In this document: positions 32,163 through 54,367 of the stretch, piece after piece | Numbering within the stretch: the first letter of the stretch is position 1 | Layout: the number at the start of each line of letters is the position of its first letter | Assembly: GCF_024529955.1 (NCBI RefSeq) | Contig: NZ_AP024854.1 | Location: 558,001-622,000 of the forward strand | Direction of reading: 5' to 3' | Length of the DNA: 64,000 nt | Source: Photobacterium toruni | Lineage (GTDB): Bacteria; Pseudomonadota; Gammaproteobacteria; Enterobacterales; Vibrionaceae | Translations under genes and position numbers: made by a program | The notes under the pieces: generated by a model | The model's database searches: none | What the model saw: only the letters and a program-made list of their open reading frames with translations | Told to the model about the DNA's origin: nothing

Positions 32163-32349
32163 AAAAAAATAGCACTGCGTTGGGGCGCAGTGCTAAAAAT
32201 TACTTCGACTTATCAGTCAAAATACAGGAAGTAAAGAGGTAGATAACTACCAATCCGGCAGGATCCGGACAATATGCAAACACAACATCGCAATGTTGAT
32301 TGAGCGGTTAGCCAGAGGGCAAAACACAAAATGTTAATCAACATTGCGG
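32163..32349 (-). ncRNA. gcvB: GcvB small regulatory RNA
   Basis: A roughly 187-nt RNA divergent from gcvA, the same arrangement as in enterobacteria. On the minus strand it begins with a 13-bp stem (CGCAATGTTGATT with AATCAACATTGCG). Then comes the G/U-rich, single-stranded seed region GATGTTGTGTTTGCA, which is almost identical to the E. coli R1 target-binding region, and later the conserved TTACTTCCTGTA. It ends in a terminator stem (TAGCACTGCG / CGCAGTGCTA) with seven T residues. GcvB uses Hfq to repress many amino acid and peptide transporter mRNAs. The reading frame spanning it is chance. Confidence 0.88.
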
Positions 32350-43012: not shown

Positions 43013-43098
43013 ACTGTCTATGACACTCTTGGATTAGAATAGATGTCCGTCGAAACGGTTTAAACCTAAAGTTTACTGAATCTTTTATGAGGTTGCGA

Positions 43099-43653
43099 AT
43101 GAATCATCCTGTTACCTGCGCTTTATCTGATTTTTCTGCTCGTTATTTACAAGCATGGTGTGATGCAGATCGCGGTTTTCCAGAAAGTGAGCATTTAGTG
43201 GGGCTTATTTCACCCTGTGTTGTTGTTGATAATGGTCAAAATGTGACTTGGAAACCTATTGATCGCCAGCCAAGTATTCGTTTGGATGGGGTCGAGAAAG
43301 GCATGGATTTATTACTTCATAGTGATATTAATGCTTTTTATTGTTCACAATATAGCGGTGATATGAGCGCTATGTTTGGTGATTTATCATTGGATTTATT
43401 ACAAGCATTTAATGATGATGATATTGATCGCTTACAACAAAATATTTTAGGTCACTTAGTGACTCAACGTCGAATGAAGCTTAAACCGACTGTATTTATT
43501 GCCGTAGTGGATGATGAGTCACAAGTCATTTCTATCTGTAATTTAACTGGGCAAGTGGTATTAGAGACATTAGGTAAAGATATTCGGCAGCCATTAGCTG
43601 ATGATGTAGCAACATTTTTACAGCAATTGCAGCCGTTAGTGGTCGAGGTATAA
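43099..43653 (+). CDS. syd: SecY-interacting protein Syd
   Basis: A 184-residue peripheral inner-membrane protein that binds SecY and is thought to monitor translocon assembly. It matches E. coli Syd throughout (ALSDFSARYLQAW, FYCSQYSGDMSAMFGDL, NILGHLVTQRRMKLKPT, SICNLTGQVVLETLG). I start it at the ATG at 43099 because GAGG lies 7 bp upstream; an in-frame ATG four codons earlier overlaps that site. In E. coli syd is next to csrB, as here. Confidence 0.93.
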   Translation: MNHPVTCALSDFSARYLQAWCDADRGFPESEHLVGLISPCVVVDNGQNVTWKPIDRQPSIRLDGVEKGMDLLLHSDINAFYCSQYSGDMSAMFGDLSLDLLQAFNDDDIDRLQQNILGHLVTQRRMKLKPTVFIAVVDDESQVISICNLTGQVVLETLGKDIRQPLADDVATFLQQLQPLVVEV

Positions 43654-43656
43654 CAC

Positions 43657-44433
43657 GTGTTTGTTATTGAGTTACAATTTGAATGTTTTGATAATACGAC
43701 TTTATCACAAGTTGATACTGCCATTAATGGCTTAATGGATATGTTGCGCTATAACGGTCAAGTCCTTGGTCGTGAATTTCCTGTCGTTATTGATGAGGGG
43801 ATTTTTCGAGTTAGGGTTGTGTGTCCCGAAAAAGAAAGCCTTCATTCTCGCTATAATAGCCCACAAGTGAATCAGTGCTATGAACAATTAACGAATGCAT
43901 GTTTGCTGGCGCCTAAAATAAAAATATTAGGGGTGGATCTTAATTCAGATTCAGTCGCTGAAAGCTTTTCACCATCATGGCAAGTGCTTTATACCACTTA
44001 TGTTCATAGTTGCTCGCCGTTGCGTAGTGGCGATACGTTATTACCGATCCCATTATATCAAACGGGGGCAACGACAAATGATGACTATAAAGCGATCATT
44101 AAATGGCAAACCGAGTGGCAAGCATTTGATGAAATTCAAATGGCAATTAAAAGTCCGACTGCAGTTAGCATGGCATTAGCTGAAATTGGTGAGATAGACA
44201 GTGAATTATTCATTCGTGGGCGCGAATTATGTCGTCATATCGAAATGACCACTGAAGTACCGACGTATTACTATCAGTACCGTGTTGGTGGTGAAAGTAA
44301 AGCCATTGAATTAGCTAGAAAGTGTCCATGTTGTGGTGGCGAATGGCGAGTGCCAGAAGCATTGCATGGCTTGTTTCATTTTAAATGTGACCGTTGTCGA
44401 ATCGTGTCTAATATATCGTGGAACTTTCAGTAA
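43657..44433 (+). CDS. DUF2310 zinc-ribbon-containing protein
   Basis: A 258-residue conserved protein. A C-terminal zinc ribbon is formed by CPCCGGEW and, about 25 residues on, CDRCRI. The N-terminal 200 residues have no motif that I recognise. The family is annotated as possibly nucleic-acid-binding, without experimental function known to me. GTG start, 3 bp after the syd stop, so it is co-translated with syd. Confidence 0.82.
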   Translation: MFVIELQFECFDNTTLSQVDTAINGLMDMLRYNGQVLGREFPVVIDEGIFRVRVVCPEKESLHSRYNSPQVNQCYEQLTNACLLAPKIKILGVDLNSDSVAESFSPSWQVLYTTYVHSCSPLRSGDTLLPIPLYQTGATTNDDYKAIIKWQTEWQAFDEIQMAIKSPTAVSMALAEIGEIDSELFIRGRELCRHIEMTTEVPTYYYQYRVGGESKAIELARKCPCCGGEWRVPEALHGLFHFKCDRCRIVSNISWNFQ

Positions 44434-44441
44434 TAATGAAT

Positions 44442-44470
44442 AAAGCACCTAACCATAAAGGTGCTTTTTT
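44442..44470. terminator. Terminator between the DUF2310 gene and the next convergent gene
   Basis: AAAGCACCT / AGGTGCTTT pairs around a short loop, then six T residues on the plus strand; the A-run on the other side makes it usable for the convergent gene too. Confidence 0.85.
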
Positions 44471-44474
44471 ATTA

Positions 44475-44747
44475 TTAGCGATCAGCTTCTAATCGTGCTA
44501 GACGGGTTGAAAGTGACAATATCTGTTGTTCAAGCTGTTCAATACGTTGTTCGCTTGTTAACACCAGTTGCTGTTTTTCTATATAAGGTACCTTGGCATT
44601 TTTTTGCCATGCTTGTAATGCTTTTATGATCACCGGAATTGGTAATGGTGTCGTTAAACGCGCTTTAATTAATGCCGTTGAGGGCTGTTTTTTTTCTGCC
44701 ACTAAGCTTGCTATTACTTGCTCTATTTCTTGAGTAATGGTTGACAT
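44475..44747 (-). CDS. Small coiled-coil protein, KfrA-N-like, function unknown
   Basis: A 90-residue protein. The first 55 residues look like a small helical domain (EVKxPSTALIKARLTTPLPIPVII-like pattern) reminiscent of KfrA N-terminal DNA-binding domains. The C-terminus (about 62-90) is a leucine-heptad coiled coil (QRIEQLEQQILSLSTRLARL). AAGGAATT precedes the ATG. Similar small proteins occur in Vibrio, from memory. A DNA-binding role is inference only. Its upstream region is shared with the csrB array. Confidence 0.65.
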   Translation of the reverse strand: MSTITQEIEQVIASLVAEKKQPSTALIKARLTTPLPIPVIIKALQAWQKNAKVPYIEKQQLVLTSEQRIEQLEQQILSLSTRLARLEADR

Positions 44748-44919
44748 AATAATTCCTTAGTAAAGATTGAGCTTATTTTCGAAGTAAAGTATCTCGTTGG
44801 TCAATCATTTCACATTAATTTGCATGTGTTGTTGTGCTTCATTTAACAAGCTATTCTCACAGTGTGATTATTGTGGCTATCGGTGTAAATAGGCAATTTA
44901 GACAAATTGCTAATGCTGT

Positions 44920-44937
44920 TGTAAGAGATCTCTCACA
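44920..44937. promoter_or_regulatory. GacA/UvrY/VarA-type box upstream of csrB copy 1
   Basis: TGTAAGAGATCTCTCACA is an 18-bp imperfect palindrome that differs from the TGTAAG-N6-CTTACA consensus at one position. It ends 167 bp before the inferred 5' end of csrB copy 1. A second half-site TGTAAG lies at 44942-44947. The rest of the 356-bp gap 44748-45103 is AT-rich and holds no recognisable gene. Confidence 0.82.
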
Positions 44938-45071
44938 CGCATGTAAGAGATTAAGCTTTTTATTATAGATTATGACCACTTATTATTACTTAATAGGTTG
45001 ATTAATATTGATATTATATTTTTTGTTGTTTGTTAGGTGAAAAAATAAATTAAATAATATTTAAGCATATA

Positions 45072-45099
45072 TTGTGAATAATAATCAAAAGAGTAATCT
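45072..45099 (+). promoter_or_regulatory. Predicted promoter of csrB copy 1
   Basis: -35 TTGTGA and -10 TAATCT with 16-bp spacing, placing the start about 45104-45106, where sequence identity with copy 2 begins. Confidence 0.6.
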
Positions 45100-45103
45100 T
45101 CAT

Positions 45104-45544
45104 GGTGTCGAAAGGATACGACATAACGGAACAGGAAATGCCACGGATTCAGGCAGTCTCAGGATGAGATATTGGTAAACTAGGATGGTTTATCGAACAT
45201 GGAATGTGAAGGGAATATCGTAGGATGCGATAATAAGTAAACAGGATGTTTACTGGTCAGGAAGACATTAGGATAACTTCAGGATGAAGTAAGAACACCT
45301 CTAGGATTGAGGCATAAAGGATCACTTCAGGATGAAGTAAAGGACACCTCCAGGAAGGAGATGAGAGTCAGAGCAGGATGTGATGACGGGTTAGGATGGC
45401 CACTGGAACAACTTCAGGATGAAGTAAAAAGGACAATGCTGACGGAACACAGCAGTCAAGGGAAGGAAGCAGGGAGCAACATAGTAGCGGGATAGCTGCA
45501 AGCAAGACCTCAGGGCGCGACGAAAGTCGCGCCCGCTCTTTTTT
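45104..45544 (+). ncRNA. csrB: CsrB-family small RNA, copy 1
   Basis: A roughly 441-nt RNA that should sequester the translation regulator CsrA. I count about 29 GGA triplets, many as AGGATG or CAGGATG in hairpin loops whose stems are visible (ACTTCAGGATGAAGT, GTAAACAGGATGTTTAC, CTCAGGATGAG). The 3' part GCAGGGAGCAACATAGTAGC is close to the end of E. coli CsrB. It ends in a GGGCGCGAC / GTCGCGCCC stem, GAAA loop and six T residues. The 62-codon frame inside is chance. It is transcribed on its own, downstream of a GacA-type box. Confidence 0.9.
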
Positions 45545-45620
45545 GTGGATCTAATAAAAAGTAATTTATAGCGAAGGCGTGATAAATTTATTTTGATTCA
45601 TTCAAGGCGATTTGTTTTTA

Positions 45621-45697
45621 TTCACACTTCACACTTCACACTTCACACTTCACACTTCACACTTCACACTTCACACTTCACACTTCACACTTCACAC
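45621..45697. repeat. Heptanucleotide tandem repeat (TTCACAC) x 11
   Basis: Eleven perfect consecutive copies of TTCACAC lie 76 bp after the csrB copy 1 terminator. There are no spacers, so it is not a CRISPR. It is probably length-variable between strains through slipped-strand replication. Confidence 0.95.
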
Positions 45698-45777
45698 CTA
45701 TTTGTCTGAATAATAACAATATTTTGCTTCATATATTTAAATATGATAAATGATGAATGGCTTTTAACTACTCGCAG

Positions 45778-45795
45778 TGTGCGAGATCTCTTACA
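45778..45795. promoter_or_regulatory. GacA/UvrY/VarA-type box upstream of csrB copy 2
   Basis: TGTGCGAGATCTCTTACA keeps the AGATCT core and a perfect right arm CTTACA. It ends 169 bp before the inferred 5' end of csrB copy 2. A degraded second half-site (TGTGGGAGATAAGC) follows near 45801-45814. No protein gene is seen in the gap 45545-45963. Confidence 0.82.
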
Positions 45796-45963
45796 AAGTT
45801 GTGGGAGATAAGCATAATAGTAATATACATATAACCCCCGCGCCTTACTTAACCTATTGTTTTTAAGTTGTTTATATTTAATTTTATTTAATTTGATTAT
45901 AAGCAAGTAAAAAAGATATTTTGTTCTATATGGGATTTATTAGGTTATTCACATAGTATTAGT

Positions 45964-46356
45964 GGTGTCGAAAGGATACGACATAACGGAACAGGAAATG
46001 CCACGGATTCAGGCAGTCTCAGGATGAGATATTGGTAAACTAGGATGGTTTATCGAACATGGAATGTGAAGGGAATATCGTAGGATGCGATAATAAGTAA
46101 ACAGGATGTTTACTGGTCAGGAAGACATTAGGACAACTTCAGGATGAAGTAAAGGACACCTCCAGGAAGGAGATGAGAGTCAGAACAGGATGTGATGACG
46201 GGTTAGGATGGCCGCTGGAACAACTTTAGGATGAAGTAAAAAGGACAATGCTGACGGAACACAGCAGTCAAAGGAAGGAAGCAGGGAGCAACATAGTAGC
46301 GGGATAGCTGCAAGCAAGACCTTAGGGCGCGACGAAAGTCGCGCCCGCTCTTTTTT
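45964..46356 (+). ncRNA. CsrB-family small RNA, copy 2
   Basis: A roughly 393-nt CsrB-type RNA, nearly identical to copy 1 except that it lacks a 48-nt module and has a few substitutions. I count about 26 GGA triplets. The terminator is identical (GGGCGCGAC / GTCGCGCCC, GAAA loop, six T). A -10 TAGTAT lies at 45954-45959, but the -35 is weak. It should titrate CsrA like copy 1. Confidence 0.9.
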
Positions 46357-46433
46357 GTGGATTTGATAAAATGTAATTTATAACGAAGGCGTGATAAATT
46401 TATTTTGATTCATTCAAGGCGATTTGTTTTTAT

Positions 46434-46479
46434 CCACACCTCACACCTCACACCTCACACCTCACACCTCACACCTCAC
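46434..46479. repeat. Heptanucleotide tandem repeat (CTCACAC) x about 6
   Basis: Five full CTCACAC units with partial units at each end (CCACAC before, CTCAC after). It occupies the same place after csrB copy 2 as the TTCACAC array after copy 1. The unit differs by one base, consistently in all units. Confidence 0.93.
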
Positions 46480-46504
46480 GCAGATAGCGTTTTTCTATTG
46501 AATT

Positions 46505-46522
46505 TGTAAGAGATCTCTCACG
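46505..46522. promoter_or_regulatory. GacA/UvrY/VarA-type box upstream of csrB copy 3
   Basis: TGTAAGAGATCTCTCACG has the perfect left arm and AGATCT core; the right arm differs from CTTACA at two positions. It ends 167 bp before the inferred 5' end of copy 3. The gap 46357-46688 holds no recognisable protein gene. Confidence 0.8.
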
Positions 46523-46655
46523 GATGTGTAGGACTTTTTCTGTTTTCTTAGCAGCGAATATCGTAATTGAAAATTAATATTATTATCTATCAGTAAGTTA
46601 TTCATAATCTGTAAATATGAAGGATTGTGAATTATAATTAATGGTTTATTTATTA

Positions 46656-46683
46656 TTGCGTCATTTTTTTAATAAGGTAATAT
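46656..46683 (+). promoter_or_regulatory. Predicted promoter of csrB copy 3
   Basis: -35 TTGCGT and -10 TAATAT with 16-bp spacing, placing the start at about 46689. Confidence 0.6.
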
Positions 46684-46688
46684 GAGTT

Positions 46689-47096
46689 CATCAGCTGGAG
46701 CTGACAAGGATTAAGGAATAGCCATGGAGCTGGCCGCTCAGGATGAGCAATAGGTGGTGTGGATTATCATCTTGCTGGATGCATAGGATCCTCTAGGATT
46801 GAGGGCAATAGATAGGATATCTATTTGTTAGGATAACAATATTCTAGGATGGAATTGGGACTGACTTCATTATGGAGTTAGGAACATCAAGGACACCTCG
46901 TTAGAGAGAGAGAGTCAGTATCGGACATACTGATGGGTCAGGGATTACCGAAGAATGACTTCTAGGATGAAGTTAAGATTTACCTGGGGATTTGTATATC
47001 AAGGATTGATAGCAGGGAGCACTACAGTAGCTGGATTGCTGCAAAAGTAATATCTAAGGGCGTGACAATATTTATTGTCGCGCCCATTCTTTTTTT
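46689..47096 (+). ncRNA. CsrB-family small RNA, copy 3 (diverged)
   Basis: A roughly 408-nt RNA with about 24 GGA triplets by my count, mostly TAGGAT or AAGGAT, several within visible hairpins (GCTCAGGATGAGC, GACTTCTAGGATGAAGTT with a mismatch). The sequence is diverged from copies 1 and 2, but the 3' block GCAGGGAGCACTACAGTAGCTGG is conserved, and the terminator is a similar GGGCGTGACAATA / TATTGTCGCGCCC stem with a T-run. It is an older paralog with the same CsrA-sequestering role inferred. Confidence 0.85.
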
Positions 47097-47105
47097 ACAG
47101 CAAAG

Positions 47106-47420
47106 TTAATAATCGCTGCCTTCTGGAATACGGTGCGGCGGTACATAAAAATAACTCACCCGTAAGCGTTTCATTTCAATATAACCTTGATACACATCCG
47201 TTCCATCAGCAGAAAATTCAAACACAAACACTGTTCGCCATCCCCACTCATCATGATGATCTTTGAGTTTTTGTTTACCTCGAGCAAAACTGATCATTTG
47301 TAAGCCCATATTTTTACAACGCTGCTCAATGTAATGCTGTGCTAATTCAGTTTGACGCCGTTGTTGCCAAAATACGAAACCGATAATAGCAATAATTAAA
47401 ATACCGAACAGGTTATCCAT
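47106..47420 (-). CDS. DUF3301 single-pass membrane protein
   Basis: A 104-residue protein with one N-terminal membrane helix (about 3-19) followed by a charged cytoplasmic or periplasmic domain. WGWRTVFVFEFSADGTDVYQG resembles the DUF3301 family found in Vibrionaceae. No function is known. AAGGA precedes the ATG. The stop lies 10 bp from the csrB copy 3 terminator, which probably also ends this minus-strand transcript. Second gene of a pair with the DUF3549 gene, 33-bp gap. Confidence 0.75.
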   Translation of the reverse strand: MDNLFGILIIAIIGFVFWQQRRQTELAQHYIEQRCKNMGLQMISFARGKQKLKDHHDEWGWRTVFVFEFSADGTDVYQGYIEMKRLRVSYFYVPPHRIPEGSDY

Positions 47421-47453
47421 AGCGTAAAAAGTCCTTATAAACGATGAATATGA

Positions 47454-48500
47454 TTAGTGATTTCTAGCATGTTGTTGTAATTTTTGAATCGCATTAATAA
47501 GAGCAGGATCAGCTTGGCCATGCAGGATTTGCAACATGATCCCACGTAATAATGGTTGCATGACTAAATCAGTAAATAGCTGATTAAACAATGTCTGATC
47601 TTGGGTTTCGGCTAAACGTAATAAAAATAATGAGGCGATATTTATAACAGTAAGGCCACTCCAACATCGTCCACTAATCGCAATGAGTACTTCAGGATGG
47701 CATAGTGCAGGTTGCTGTAAAATAGTGGTTAAGGTTTGTTGTAGTTGTTGCGGGGCGCTACCAGCAAGAGCACGAATTAAGGCGGCGATCAAAAATAAAT
47801 CAGGTTGCTGCTGTTGGTATTCTAGTGTTAATCGCTCTGTTATACGTTGTGTTAGTGGCATTGGAATAGAGCAATGCTCAAGGCAGCCTAGCAGTGCATA
47901 CAAAGGTGTCATTGGCAGATGGTTTAATGCTTTACGTAATAAGGTTGCGTTATTGTGGTGTGACATACGAGCACAGATATCCGCTAAACCTTGTAAACCT
48001 ATATGTTGCCATTGCTGCCAATCTTGTTGACCAGATAAGTAAGCTTGTGCATCAGCATAATATTGACTGGGTGGTAACGATAGCAATACGCGTAATTGCG
48101 CATTAAATATCGCCATTTTATCGTCATTAGGCTTAAAGGTATAAGGGTTATTAGCAAGCTTTTGTTGTTCTTCTTCGGTTGGAGTACCGTTTAAACTTGC
48201 CCCCATTGCTTCAATAACATACTTAATAAAATCACCGACAGCCGCTTGTTTTAATAATCCTCGTTCATCAAGTGGTAAACGTAAAAACCATACCCAAGGC
48301 GGTTGTTGATGTTGCCAAAATGAAATTGCAATATGAGCATGTTGCTGAAGTGGCCATGGATAAGGCTGACGATTTTCTTCAACTGCTTTAAATTGGTCGT
48401 TATTAATTTCATTTACTCGGCGACCTAAATCAAAAATATTATAACGACAACCAGCGTTATCAAGCAATTGGGTTAAAGTATGAAAGGTTTCCATGGACAT
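47454..48500 (-). CDS. DUF3549 family protein
   Basis: A 348-residue soluble protein, Gln- and Leu-rich, mostly helical, resembling the DUF3549 family of Vibrionaceae and related bacteria. The N-terminal third (about 1-100; DLGRRVNEIN, WFLRLPLDERGLL) is the most conserved-looking part; the rest looks like helical repeats. No catalytic motif or known function. GGAG lies upstream of the ATG. It is transcribed away from yqcC with the DUF3301 gene downstream. Confidence 0.72.
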   Translation of the reverse strand: MSMETFHTLTQLLDNAGCRYNIFDLGRRVNEINNDQFKAVEENRQPYPWPLQQHAHIAISFWQHQQPPWVWFLRLPLDERGLLKQAAVGDFIKYVIEAMGASLNGTPTEEEQQKLANNPYTFKPNDDKMAIFNAQLRVLLSLPPSQYYADAQAYLSGQQDWQQWQHIGLQGLADICARMSHHNNATLLRKALNHLPMTPLYALLGCLEHCSIPMPLTQRITERLTLEYQQQQPDLFLIAALIRALAGSAPQQLQQTLTTILQQPALCHPEVLIAISGRCWSGLTVINIASLFLLRLAETQDQTLFNQLFTDLVMQPLLRGIMLQILHGQADPALINAIQKLQQHARNH

Positions 48501-48654
48501 AATAAATAAAGCTCCTTCAATTTAGCTTATTCAGTATCAGTAATCGTATTAACTCAGCATACCTGTGAATAGGTGGCTGATCACCATAATATAGTTGGGG
48601 CTGTTGAGCCAAAATGCTATCCTGCGCCGTTTTTATTATCAACAAAGAGGGGTT

Positions 48655-48975
48655 ATGGTGGATAAGTATCATCAAAGTCAGCAATTACTCACTCAATTAG
48701 AAAATACATTACGACAATATCATTATTGGGAAACGATTGTTCCTGAGCCGCAAGCTTTAGCGAGTATTGAACCTTTTGCGATTGATACTTTAGATTGTCA
48801 TCAATGGTTACAATGGATTTTCATTCCTAAATTACGTTACTTAGTCGTACAACGCTTACCGCTACCGACTCAGTTTGCTATTTCCCCTTATGTTGAAGAA
48901 GCAATGAAAAATCAGGCTGGAATAATAGCTATTGTGGCGATTGTTCGTGAAATTGATCAACTGTTTAAATACTAA
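48655..48975 (+). CDS. yqcC: YqcC family protein
   Basis: A 106-residue protein matching E. coli YqcC (PFAIDTLDCHQWLQWIFIPKLRYLV, LPTQFAISPYVEEAM). The family has no firmly established function. The start at 48655 follows AGAGGGG; the open frame extends 20 codons upstream without similarity. The stop is 9 bp before truC. In E. coli csrB lies between syd and yqcC, which agrees with the RNA array found here. Confidence 0.88.
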   Translation: MVDKYHQSQQLLTQLENTLRQYHYWETIVPEPQALASIEPFAIDTLDCHQWLQWIFIPKLRYLVVQRLPLPTQFAISPYVEEAMKNQAGIIAIVAIVREIDQLFKY

Positions 48976-48984
48976 GTGAGTCGA

Positions 48985-49722
48985 ATGGAACTGGAAATTT
49001 TATACCAAGATGATACGTTAATTGCGGTTAATAAACCGGCCGGTATGTTAGTTCATCGTTCTTGGTTAGACAGCCATGAAACGGTGTTTGTGGTGCAGAC
49101 CTTACGCGATCAAATTGGTCAGCATGTGTTTCCATTGCACCGCTTAGATAGACCAACATCAGGGGTACTCTTATTTGGCTTATCTAGTGAAATAGCAGCC
49201 ATGATGATGCCGGTCTTTGCTGGGCGAGAAATGCATAAAACCTATCATGCAGTTGTGAGAGGTTGGATAAAAGAAGCGGCAATATTAGATTATCCGCTCA
49301 AAGTGATGTTAGATAAAATTGCTGATAAAAAGGCCACTGAAGATAAAGAGCCACAATCAGCCGTGACTGCTTATGCGCCATTAGCCACTGTCGAGACTGA
49401 TATTGCGGTAGGGCGTTATGCGACTAGTCGTTATAGCTTAATAAAATTGGAACCAGAAACAGGACGGAAGCATCAATTGCGCCGCCACATGCACCATTTA
49501 GATCATCATATGATTGGCGATGTAAATTATGGCGATGGCAAACATAATCGTATGTTCCGTGAAAATCTTGATTGCCATCGGTTAATGTTACATGCATCCC
49601 GTTTACAATTTGTTCATCCCGTGACTGGTGTTGCTGTTGATATTCGTGCCGATGTCGATGATGTTTGGCAACGGGTTATGAGCACATTTAATTGGGCGCC
49701 ATCATTATTGCTAGATACATAA
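48985..49722 (+). CDS. truC: tRNA pseudouridine(65) synthase
   Basis: Converts U65 to pseudouridine in tRNA-Ile and tRNA-Asp. The 245-residue RluA-family enzyme has the catalytic motif HRLDRPTSGVLLFGLSS (Asp in RLDRPTS) and the later block LEPETGRKHQLRRHM. The start is the ATG at 48985 because GTGAG then sits at proper spacing; the GTG at 48976 has none. It overlaps functionally with its operon neighbours yqcC and yqcA as in E. coli. Confidence 0.94.
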   Translation: MELEILYQDDTLIAVNKPAGMLVHRSWLDSHETVFVVQTLRDQIGQHVFPLHRLDRPTSGVLLFGLSSEIAAMMMPVFAGREMHKTYHAVVRGWIKEAAILDYPLKVMLDKIADKKATEDKEPQSAVTAYAPLATVETDIAVGRYATSRYSLIKLEPETGRKHQLRRHMHHLDHHMIGDVNYGDGKHNRMFRENLDCHRLMLHASRLQFVHPVTGVAVDIRADVDDVWQRVMSTFNWAPSLLLDT

Positions 49723-53999: not shown

Positions 54000-54264
54000 A
54001 AAATCGTCTCAATCTGTATGTTTCTGTGTGAGACTATATTACCAGTCGCAAGGGGTTAAAGGAAAGATAAGATTAGTTCTCATATCCAATTTTGACTGGA
54101 TTTTATTGGTCGTTCTATGGTATAAAGCGCGCCGTAAACAGTGATTTTGTTTCTGTTATAAGCAATAATTTAACCTTTATAAGGTCAAGTTAAGGTCAGT
54201 AATGGTGCAACTTGATTGGATTACACATACTTTTTTATTATTCACACATATCGACACATCTGCC

Positions 54265-54367
54265 GGGGTGCTCAGTTATCTGCTTTAGGTAACAATGGCT
54301 ATACGCTGTTATCGGGTCGGTTTTAAGATGGGATATGTGGACGCCTAACCCCATAGAGGATTATTCA
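54265..54367 (+). promoter_or_regulatory. rpsB 5' leader, likely S2 autoregulation site
   Basis: Between map and rpsB lie 368 bp without a gene. The last 100 bp can fold: GTTATC / GGTAAC near 54275-54293 forms a hairpin, and GGGGT at 54265-54269 can pair with ACCCC at 54348-54352, just before the Shine-Dalgarno GAGG. In gammaproteobacteria the rpsB leader is the target of repression by S2; that this is the homologous structure is inferred. Confidence 0.5.

Follow-up and report, generated by a model that had tools for sequence, protein, structure and literature searches.

Small RNAs of the CsrB family, which sequester CsrA, have been described in Escherichia coli and in several Vibrio species. 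Three such RNAs arranged head to tail are the subject of the present analysis of 64,000 nucleotides of Photobacterium toruni DNA (contig NZ_AP024854.1, positions 558,001 to 622,000), referred to here as the window; a window coordinate is the contig position minus 558000. At the csrB promoter an inverted repeat lies at -183/-182 with a partial repeat 5 bp downstream, phosphorylated UvrY leaves a footprint and IHF is required (Zere et al., PMC4682653). In Vibrio cholerae and V. tasmaniensis the Csr RNAs are under VarS/VarA, with the exception of V. tasmaniensis csrB1, and it has been asked why bacteria retain several redundant Csr RNAs (Nguyen et al., PMC6262261). Four putative csrB copies in Photobacterium profundum are mentioned in the latter article, which takes them from an earlier source. 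RNA sequencing of that species found two CsrB transcripts with chromosome-2 tags (PBPRB1150a/b) that were higher at high pressure, and the accessible part of that article does not link them to the array locus (PMC3505737). All three articles are cited here from those of their parts that were accessible.

Judged by its sequence, the window locus occupies the ancestral csrB site and is a tandem array of csrB genes, with a known RNA family in an arrangement that is genus-wide. Two of its features, a gene conversion pattern and a variation in the number of internal units, were not found described in the literature searched. Those searches, which mostly covered sources other than subscription journals and supplements, returned no Photobacterium csrB array, no csrB gene conversion and no CsrB unit variation.

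A tandem csrB array at the csrB site

The gathering score of the Rfam CsrB family (RF00018, 71 bits) is reached three times on the + strand, and the covariance model thus bears out the family named in a preliminary description of this DNA. The three RNAs span 45106-47094, with ends set by a hidden Markov model (HMM) that was seeded on the window copies and then extended over relatives (Table 1). They are three separately terminated units, as had been proposed: GC-rich stems of 9, 9 and 12 pairs, each followed by a T run, close RNA1, RNA2 and RNA3. Terminator-like matches number 8 on both strands (0.9 in shuffles), and all three on the + strand are the ends of the array RNAs. GGA is enclosed by a stem of at least 4 pairs at 16/29, 14/26 and 14/24 places in RNA1 to RNA3, with 5.4, 4.7 and 6.6 in shuffled flanks, so that GGA in a hairpin context is 2-3 times the shuffled level; the same context holds for 1916 of the 3864 GGA in 131 complete RNAs of the genus, compared to 17% after shuffling. 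The shuffles used for stems, boxes, repeats, linkers and IHF-like sites preserve single-letter composition only.

The region had also been described as free of protein genes and as occupying the position of csrB, and both statements agree with what was found. The open reading frames (ORFs) of at least 50 amino acids overlapping 44748-47100 have 62, 73 and 63 amino acids, all start with TTG, and none looks like a gene. The flanks are Syd on one side and YqcC/TruC on the other, which identifies the site, since E. coli csrB sits between syd and yqcC-truC. Minor adjustments concern the RNA ends: the start proposed at 46689 is that of the HMM, those at 45104 and 45964 are displaced to 45106 and 45966, and the proposed lengths of 441, 393 and 408 nt are close to those in Table 1.

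Promoter boxes and their geometry

Each RNA is preceded by a box fitting the pattern TGTRNGAGATCTCTYACR, defined as the best upstream match with no distance presupposed and predicted to be a response-regulator site. The GacA-type boxes of the preliminary description are therefore found in both pattern and distance, and the 167, 169 and 167 bp between box end and 5' end that it gave hold for its own 5' ends. With up to two mismatches, the pattern occurs in the whole 4.5-Mb genome at the three array places and once on contig C2 (1 mismatch), and the reversed control pattern gives 2 forward matches and 1 reverse match. The C2 match falls within an M20-peptidase frame and was taken as chance rather than as a regulatory site.

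The geometry was counted over 194 RNA rows minus 8 incomplete ones, and the counts are not independent because the genomes are related. The box centre lies 175-181 bp before the RNA start in 130 of the 131 complete genus RNAs, dispersed copies included (169 bp in the other), and 167-181 bp before it in 54 of 55 RNAs from other genera (100 bp in the other). Box mismatches range from 0 to 3 in the genus and from 1 to 5 in other genera, compared to 4-10 in shuffled genus upstream regions. Furthermore, a half-site TGTggGA after the box is conserved across the genus. Of 119 linkers, 97 have, 50-70 bp past the box, an IHF-like site that departs from what we take to be the IHF consensus by no more than 1 mismatch; 20 shuffles average 7.5 such linkers, with a maximum of 15. 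From the end of one RNA to the next box there are 57-366 bp, apart from 1348 bp ahead of an incomplete copy in one genome (G039).

The constant box spacing emphasised in the preliminary description is thus real and beyond chance, but it is not specific to the array. Dispersed copies, other genera and E. coli csrB share it, and it was rejected as a hallmark of the array; because E. coli csrB has the same arrangement, the spacing is ancestral. The core linkers of positions 1 and 2 share 62.6-69.4% identity within each of 7 related genomes, compared to 68.0 for shuffled sequence, and linker length is therefore kept without linker sequence.

Probable sequence exchange and unit variation

The account of the copies in the preliminary description was incomplete, as it overlooked the near-identity of RNA1 and RNA2 behind unlike linkers, the divergence of RNA3 and a 48-nt unit. 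RNA1 and RNA2 differ by 5 mismatches in 392 aligned positions and by one 48-nt gap. Their identity drops to background at the RNA start, and at the other end a further 75 nt or so behind the terminator is shared, up to a heptamer repeat that marks where the spacers begin to differ; related genomes carry heptamers of other sequence at the same place. Trees were built for 7 genomes picked for their likeness to the window and for having three copies. In the linker tree, positions 1 and 2 each form one clade (100/100), and both promoters therefore predate the 7 species, their linkers being unlike and grouping by position. The tree of bodies and tails requires 7 changes of position label, a position-1 clade is rejected (approximately unbiased (AU) test, p 4e-79), and pairing of RNA1 with RNA2 of the same genome is strongly supported in 3 of the 7: the window's genome (100/99), G006 and G009.

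Similar comparisons were made in further groups of genomes, also chosen by us, using mean identity over the first 150 nt. In the window's group, copies 1 and 2 of the same genome are 94.8% identical, compared to 90.9 and 91.4% for the same position across genomes, and in a second group the values are 97.9% compared to 93.2 and 93.5%. The middle copy is the divergent one in three other groups, where it is copies 1 and 3 that resemble each other (95.7 compared to 94.7 and 94.2; 93.3 compared to 90.4 and 90.0; 98.0 compared to 94.7 and 96.0). In a fourth such group copies 1 and 3 are 99.3% alike both within and between genomes. Over the last 200 nt several groups have little or no own-genome excess. 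Apparently, gene conversion has been limited to the RNA and its tail with the promoters left apart, a pattern that is clear in the window's genome and not in every relative.

The 48-nt gap corresponds to a unit with ambiguous edges, since the unit is itself a repeat. Its motifs were read by eye as two hairpins (of the ACTTC-AGGAT-GAAGT and CCTC-TAGGAT-GAGG types), a reading that was dropped because an energy fold of a two-unit stretch prefers one longer pairing. Internal tandem repeats (score at least 18) occur in 45 of the 131 complete genus RNAs and in 29 of 50 genomes, with a maximum score of 12 in 187 shuffles; their periods are 48-51 or 86-88 nt, and roughly three copies or more are present in 7 RNAs. 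Of 56 RNAs from other genera, 2 have such repeats. The variation is visible among near relatives: at 95.4-97.2% identity of the DUF3549 DNA, the middle copy measures 432, 532, 582 or 732 nt, and the longest (G032) has 56 GGA and about 8 units; two relatives 99.2% identical in the same gene have RNAs of 636 nt (G038) and 927 nt (G037), the unit number of the latter being uncertain because of an N run within the repeat. In a genome of genus code g11 (G061, L123:2987-3680) a CsrB-like RNA, about 763 nt long, contains roughly 7 repeats of a 62-nt unit, apparently an independent case of unit expansion.

In minimum-energy folds, hairpin loops with GGA number 15 in RNA1, RNA2 and the 636-nt RNA, 16 in the 732-nt RNA and 20 in the 927-nt RNA, and unpaired GGA number 26, 23, 33, 45 and 50, respectively.

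Alternative explanations

Could copies 1 and 2 be alike for reasons other than exchange? A recent, separate duplication of copy 1 in each species would explain why so few substitutions separate RNA1 from RNA2, but a fresh duplicate would bring its promoter with it, and the core linkers of the two copies are no more alike than shuffled sequence. The linker tree, in which linkers group by position across the 7 genomes, probably leaves this explanation largely contradicted, although that tree came with a long-branch warning, and we consider such duplications very unlikely. Purifying selection alone, with no exchange between copies, is marginally less probable still. CsrB function constrains hairpins and GGA motifs, and the two copies of G030 do not pair, both as selection alone would have it; the rejection of the position clade and the strong own-genome pairing in three genomes argue against it, as do the untranscribed tail common to copies 1 and 2 and the divergence of RNA3, which has the same presumed function. 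Several observations nevertheless weigh against exchange as a general account, beginning with the long-branch warning. Own-genome pairing is supported at 87/87 in G029, is not resolved in G025 and G017, and is absent in G030, the copies of which fall apart in the body tree. RNA3 is not homogenised with copies 1 and 2, and no homogenisation was found in two-copy arrays. In the array comparisons (119 complete RNAs from 48 genus genomes, with dispersed copies and loci L092 and L094 set aside), the nearest sequence in two- and three-copy arrays is the own-genome paralog for 21 of 116 bodies compared to 2 of 116 linkers, and the same position in another genome for 68 of 116 bodies and 89 of 116 linkers. 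The RNA starts are first HMM positions and not mapped ends.

The internal repeats invite two further objections. That they are assembly artefacts is improbable to a similar degree as the recent duplications: the longest case, the 927-nt RNA of G037, does include an N run in an assembly of about 570 contigs, and several genomes are drafts, but assemblies of 2-4 contigs also hold long repeats (G038, 636 nt; G032, 732 nt; G045, 549 nt; G061, about 763 nt) and within a single RNA the units differ from one another. A more serious objection is that repeat instability has produced the array and its extra units as by-products that leave CsrA titration unaffected, which we regard as a real possibility, albeit not one to be favoured. 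It would fit the variation in unit number among the near relatives described above and the redundancy of the csrB copies of V. tasmaniensis, as reported in the accessible part of Nguyen et al. (PMC6262261). The folds fit it as well, since added units are predicted to raise the number of unpaired GGA and not that of GGA hairpin loops, a prediction that also weakens the mechanism proposed below; the rise in unpaired GGA is the sole point that speaks against a by-product as far as unit number is concerned. For the array itself, two observations speak against it: the copies have kept their boxes, IHF-like sites and terminators, and two or three copies are present (among the matches listed) in 41 of the 42 genus genomes with both flanks.

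Proposed mechanism and its meaning

We consider it highly probable that the locus is a tandem csrB array with three UvrY (VarA)-activated, IHF-assisted promoters, that its RNAs sequester CsrA, that copies 1 and 2 undergo conversion and that the units turn over. In this mechanism phosphorylated UvrY would bind the box about 177 bp upstream, IHF would let the activator reach RNA polymerase by bending the linker, and CsrA would be titrated by the GGA motifs that each RNA displays. It is by analogy with E. coli and Vibrio work that binding of UvrY and IHF, transcription and CsrA titration are ascribed to this locus. Gene conversion in the transcribed part and tail would keep copies 1 and 2 near-identical as their promoters evolve separately, and the number of GGA units would change as a 48-51-nt unit is tandemly duplicated or lost. 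The family, terminators, boxes, geometry, conversion pattern and unit variation are the parts of this scheme that can be read from the DNA itself.

The exchanged bodies and independent promoters suggest that the sponge is kept the same and that the promoter sequence is free around a fixed box-IHF-promoter geometry. A greater CsrA-sequestering capacity from the array is plausible, and one may suppose, as conjecture, that selection for titration capacity drives both array and units. A tentative extension, which we put forward with less than even confidence, is that CsrA titration is tuned at two tandem levels: an array kept alike up to its promoters, and 48-51-nt units numbering 1 to about 8, a range taken from assemblies of few contigs. 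If this were true, the sponge capacity per promoter could shift by repeat slippage or recombination, with the inputs staying separate. Close relatives form a graded series, with similar promoters and RNA ends and differing numbers of GGA units and gene copies, and the dosage idea is therefore directly testable.

Table 1. Position of the array components and flanking genes in the window.
Feature	Position	Strand	Details
Syd-side flank	43087-44747		Syd 43087-43653 (+); DUF2310 43657-44433 (+); 90-aa ORF 44475-44747 (-)
Box 1, candidate UvrY/GacA (VarA)-type, TGTAAGAGATCTCTCACA	44920-44937	+	1 mismatch; centre 177 bp before RNA1
Half-site 1, TGTAAGAGAT	44942-44951		next to box 1
IHF-like site, linker 1	44991-45003	-	exact match to the assumed consensus; two more 1-mismatch sites in linker 1
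CsrB RNA 1	45106-45543	+	438 nt, 29 GGA; terminator stem 45513-45534
RF00018 match 1	45219-45546	+	140.4 bits
Extra 48-nt unit	45274-45321	+	RNA1 only (not RNA2); exact edges ambiguous
Heptamer repeat TTCACAC, 11 copies	45626-45698 (approximate)	+	spacer 1, downstream edge of shared stretch
Box 2, TGTGCGAGATCTCTTACA	45778-45795	+	2 mismatches; centre 179 bp before RNA2
Half-site 2, TGTGGGAGAT	45800-45809		next to box 2
Two IHF-like sites, linker 2	45850-45876	-	1 mismatch each
CsrB RNA 2	45966-46355	+	390 nt, 26 GGA; terminator stem 46325-46346
RF00018 match 2	46058-46358	+	133.4 bits
Heptamer repeat CACACCT, 6 copies	46436-46480 (approximate)	+	spacer 2
Box 3, TGTAAGAGATCTCTCACG	46505-46522	+	2 mismatches; centre 175 bp before RNA3
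Half-site 3, TGTAGGA	46527-46533		next to box 3
IHF-like site, linker 3	46588-46600	+	1 mismatch; two more 1-mismatch sites in linker 3
CsrB RNA 3	46689-47094	+	406 nt, 24 GGA; terminator stem 47058-47085; diverged from RNA1 and RNA2
RF00018 match 3	46790-47095	+	89.6 bits
yqcC-side flank	47106-49722		DUF3301 (-), DUF3549 (-), YqcC/DUF446 (+), pseudouridine synthase at TruC position (+)

The 90-aa ORF of the syd-side flank has no Pfam match. Elsewhere in the window, matches above gathering were obtained for the GcvB RNA (32164-32347, - strand) and the t44 RNA (54223-54349, + strand), and positions 1-513 hold the end of a ribosomal RNA operon (end of the large-subunit RNA, 5S and a tRNA).

Distribution across the genus and family

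The three-copy array noted in the preliminary description is present, yet it is a genus-wide arrangement and not a local oddity. Genus genomes are here those with the window's genus code; they are called Photobacterium on the strength of that code and of matches between the window and named Photobacterium records. Array sites were chosen from among the matches listed, with further sites possible. CsrB matches occur in at least 51 of 52 genus genomes, and the csrB site was retrieved in 49; the other three genomes are broken at the site or close to it. With both flanks within the stretch (42 genomes), 27 have three copies, 14 have two and 1 has one, among the matches listed; one of the 27, G039, has an incomplete third copy. 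The remaining 7 of the 49 comprise G010, which has three copies and its second flank gene just beyond the stretch, and 6 that are cut by a contig end or have one flank. A loss of the array is not supported in G005 and G026, where both flank genes are present on separate contigs, one of them near a contig end, and in G043, where DUF2310 lies 326 bp from the contig start and DUF3549 was not found.

Among 12 named records, P. jeanii and P. galatheae have two copies, whereas P. piscicola, P. malacitanum, P. carnosum, P. iliopiscarium, P. aquimaris and P. phosphoreum have three; a contig end cuts the array in 4 (P. kishitanii, P. aphoticum and two metagenome bins). The GGA total is 79 in the window array and ranges from 48 to 112 over the 41 two- and three-copy arrays with both flanks. 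In the family survey, which took 61 genomes from a larger group under stricter filters and then retrieved 40 stretches from other genera, 22 retrieved loci of other genera show both flanks: 14 are single-copy and 8 have two copies, one of the two being incomplete in G057 and in G066.

Other tandem CsrB RNAs were observed away from this site. One genome of another genus (G056) has four, each preceded by a box, at L106:3125-5910 between EF-P/radical-SAM genes and MgtC/chaperonin genes, and its relative G065 has three CsrB RNAs, two of which are incomplete by HMM. In addition, genus code g10 has CsrB pairs at a site without the csrB-site flanks.

The remainder of the Csr system

The array had been proposed as an alternative to dispersed Csr RNAs. 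This was not upheld, since the same genome keeps a fourth, csrC-type RNA at the csrC site; because it is retained, the array adds to dispersed copies and does not replace them. The RNA (L097:1365-1817; G000:C1, - strand) is 453 nt long with ends drawn by eye, and has 23 GGA and a terminator-like end. It is enclosed by genes for a cytochrome c and a methyltransferase; polA, Spot 42 and an EngB/YihA-type GTPase are found to one side, YihI and HemN to the other, and a weak box is centred 153 bp upstream, compared to 159 bp for E. coli csrC. By this neighbourhood, which is that of E. coli csrC, and by its box distance, it is classed as csrC-type. The CsrB model gives it 30.5 bits, under the gathering score of 71, and an Rfam scan of the 11-kb stretch around it returned no Csr family at E up to 0.5. 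Of the 52 genus genomes, 37 have DNA matches to it, some of them partial.

The genome has one CsrA, a BarA homolog (55% identity) and a UvrY homolog (76% identity) with a receiver and a LuxR-type domain. The one TAG reported in the UvrY match was dismissed, as the frame is intact.

Comparison with known systems

The window array resembles E. coli csrB in its chromosomal site and RNA family, in the 18-bp inverted repeat, whose centre in E. coli lies 182 bp ahead of the annotated 5' end, and in the IHF consensus, placed there 68 and 71 bp after the box. The partial repeat TGTAGGAGA 5 bp downstream, given in the accessible text of Zere et al. (PMC4682653), is a further likeness. It differs in having three copies where E. 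coli has one and in its variable 48-nt units; furthermore, the E. coli stretch is without the 90-aa ORF, DUF2310, DUF3301 and DUF3549 genes found around the window array.

The csrC-type RNA shares its neighbourhood with E. coli csrC, which lies between yihA and yihI, and the csrC repeat of Salmonella, as printed in the accessible text (Zere et al., PMC4682653), is 2 letters off its box. E. coli csrC is annotated at 246 nt, whereas the csrC-type RNA of the window's genome, as delimited above, has 453 nt with 23 GGA and is flanked by the cytochrome c and methyltransferase genes.

Several redundant CsrA-sequestering RNAs are likewise present in V. cholerae (CsrB, CsrC and CsrD) and V. tasmaniensis (CsrB1-4), according to the available portion of Nguyen et al. 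(PMC6262261), but at dispersed loci; in two genomes of group g12, which we take to be Vibrio and from which three copies were retrieved, a single copy stands at the csrB site. A related arrangement is csrB2-csrB3 of Aliivibrio salmonicida (the genus is printed once as Aeromonas), whose copies are likewise adjacent and have been ascribed to duplication. That arrangement is a pair, and the accessible part of the article mentions neither conversion nor unit variation (Nguyen et al., 2018, PMC6262261).

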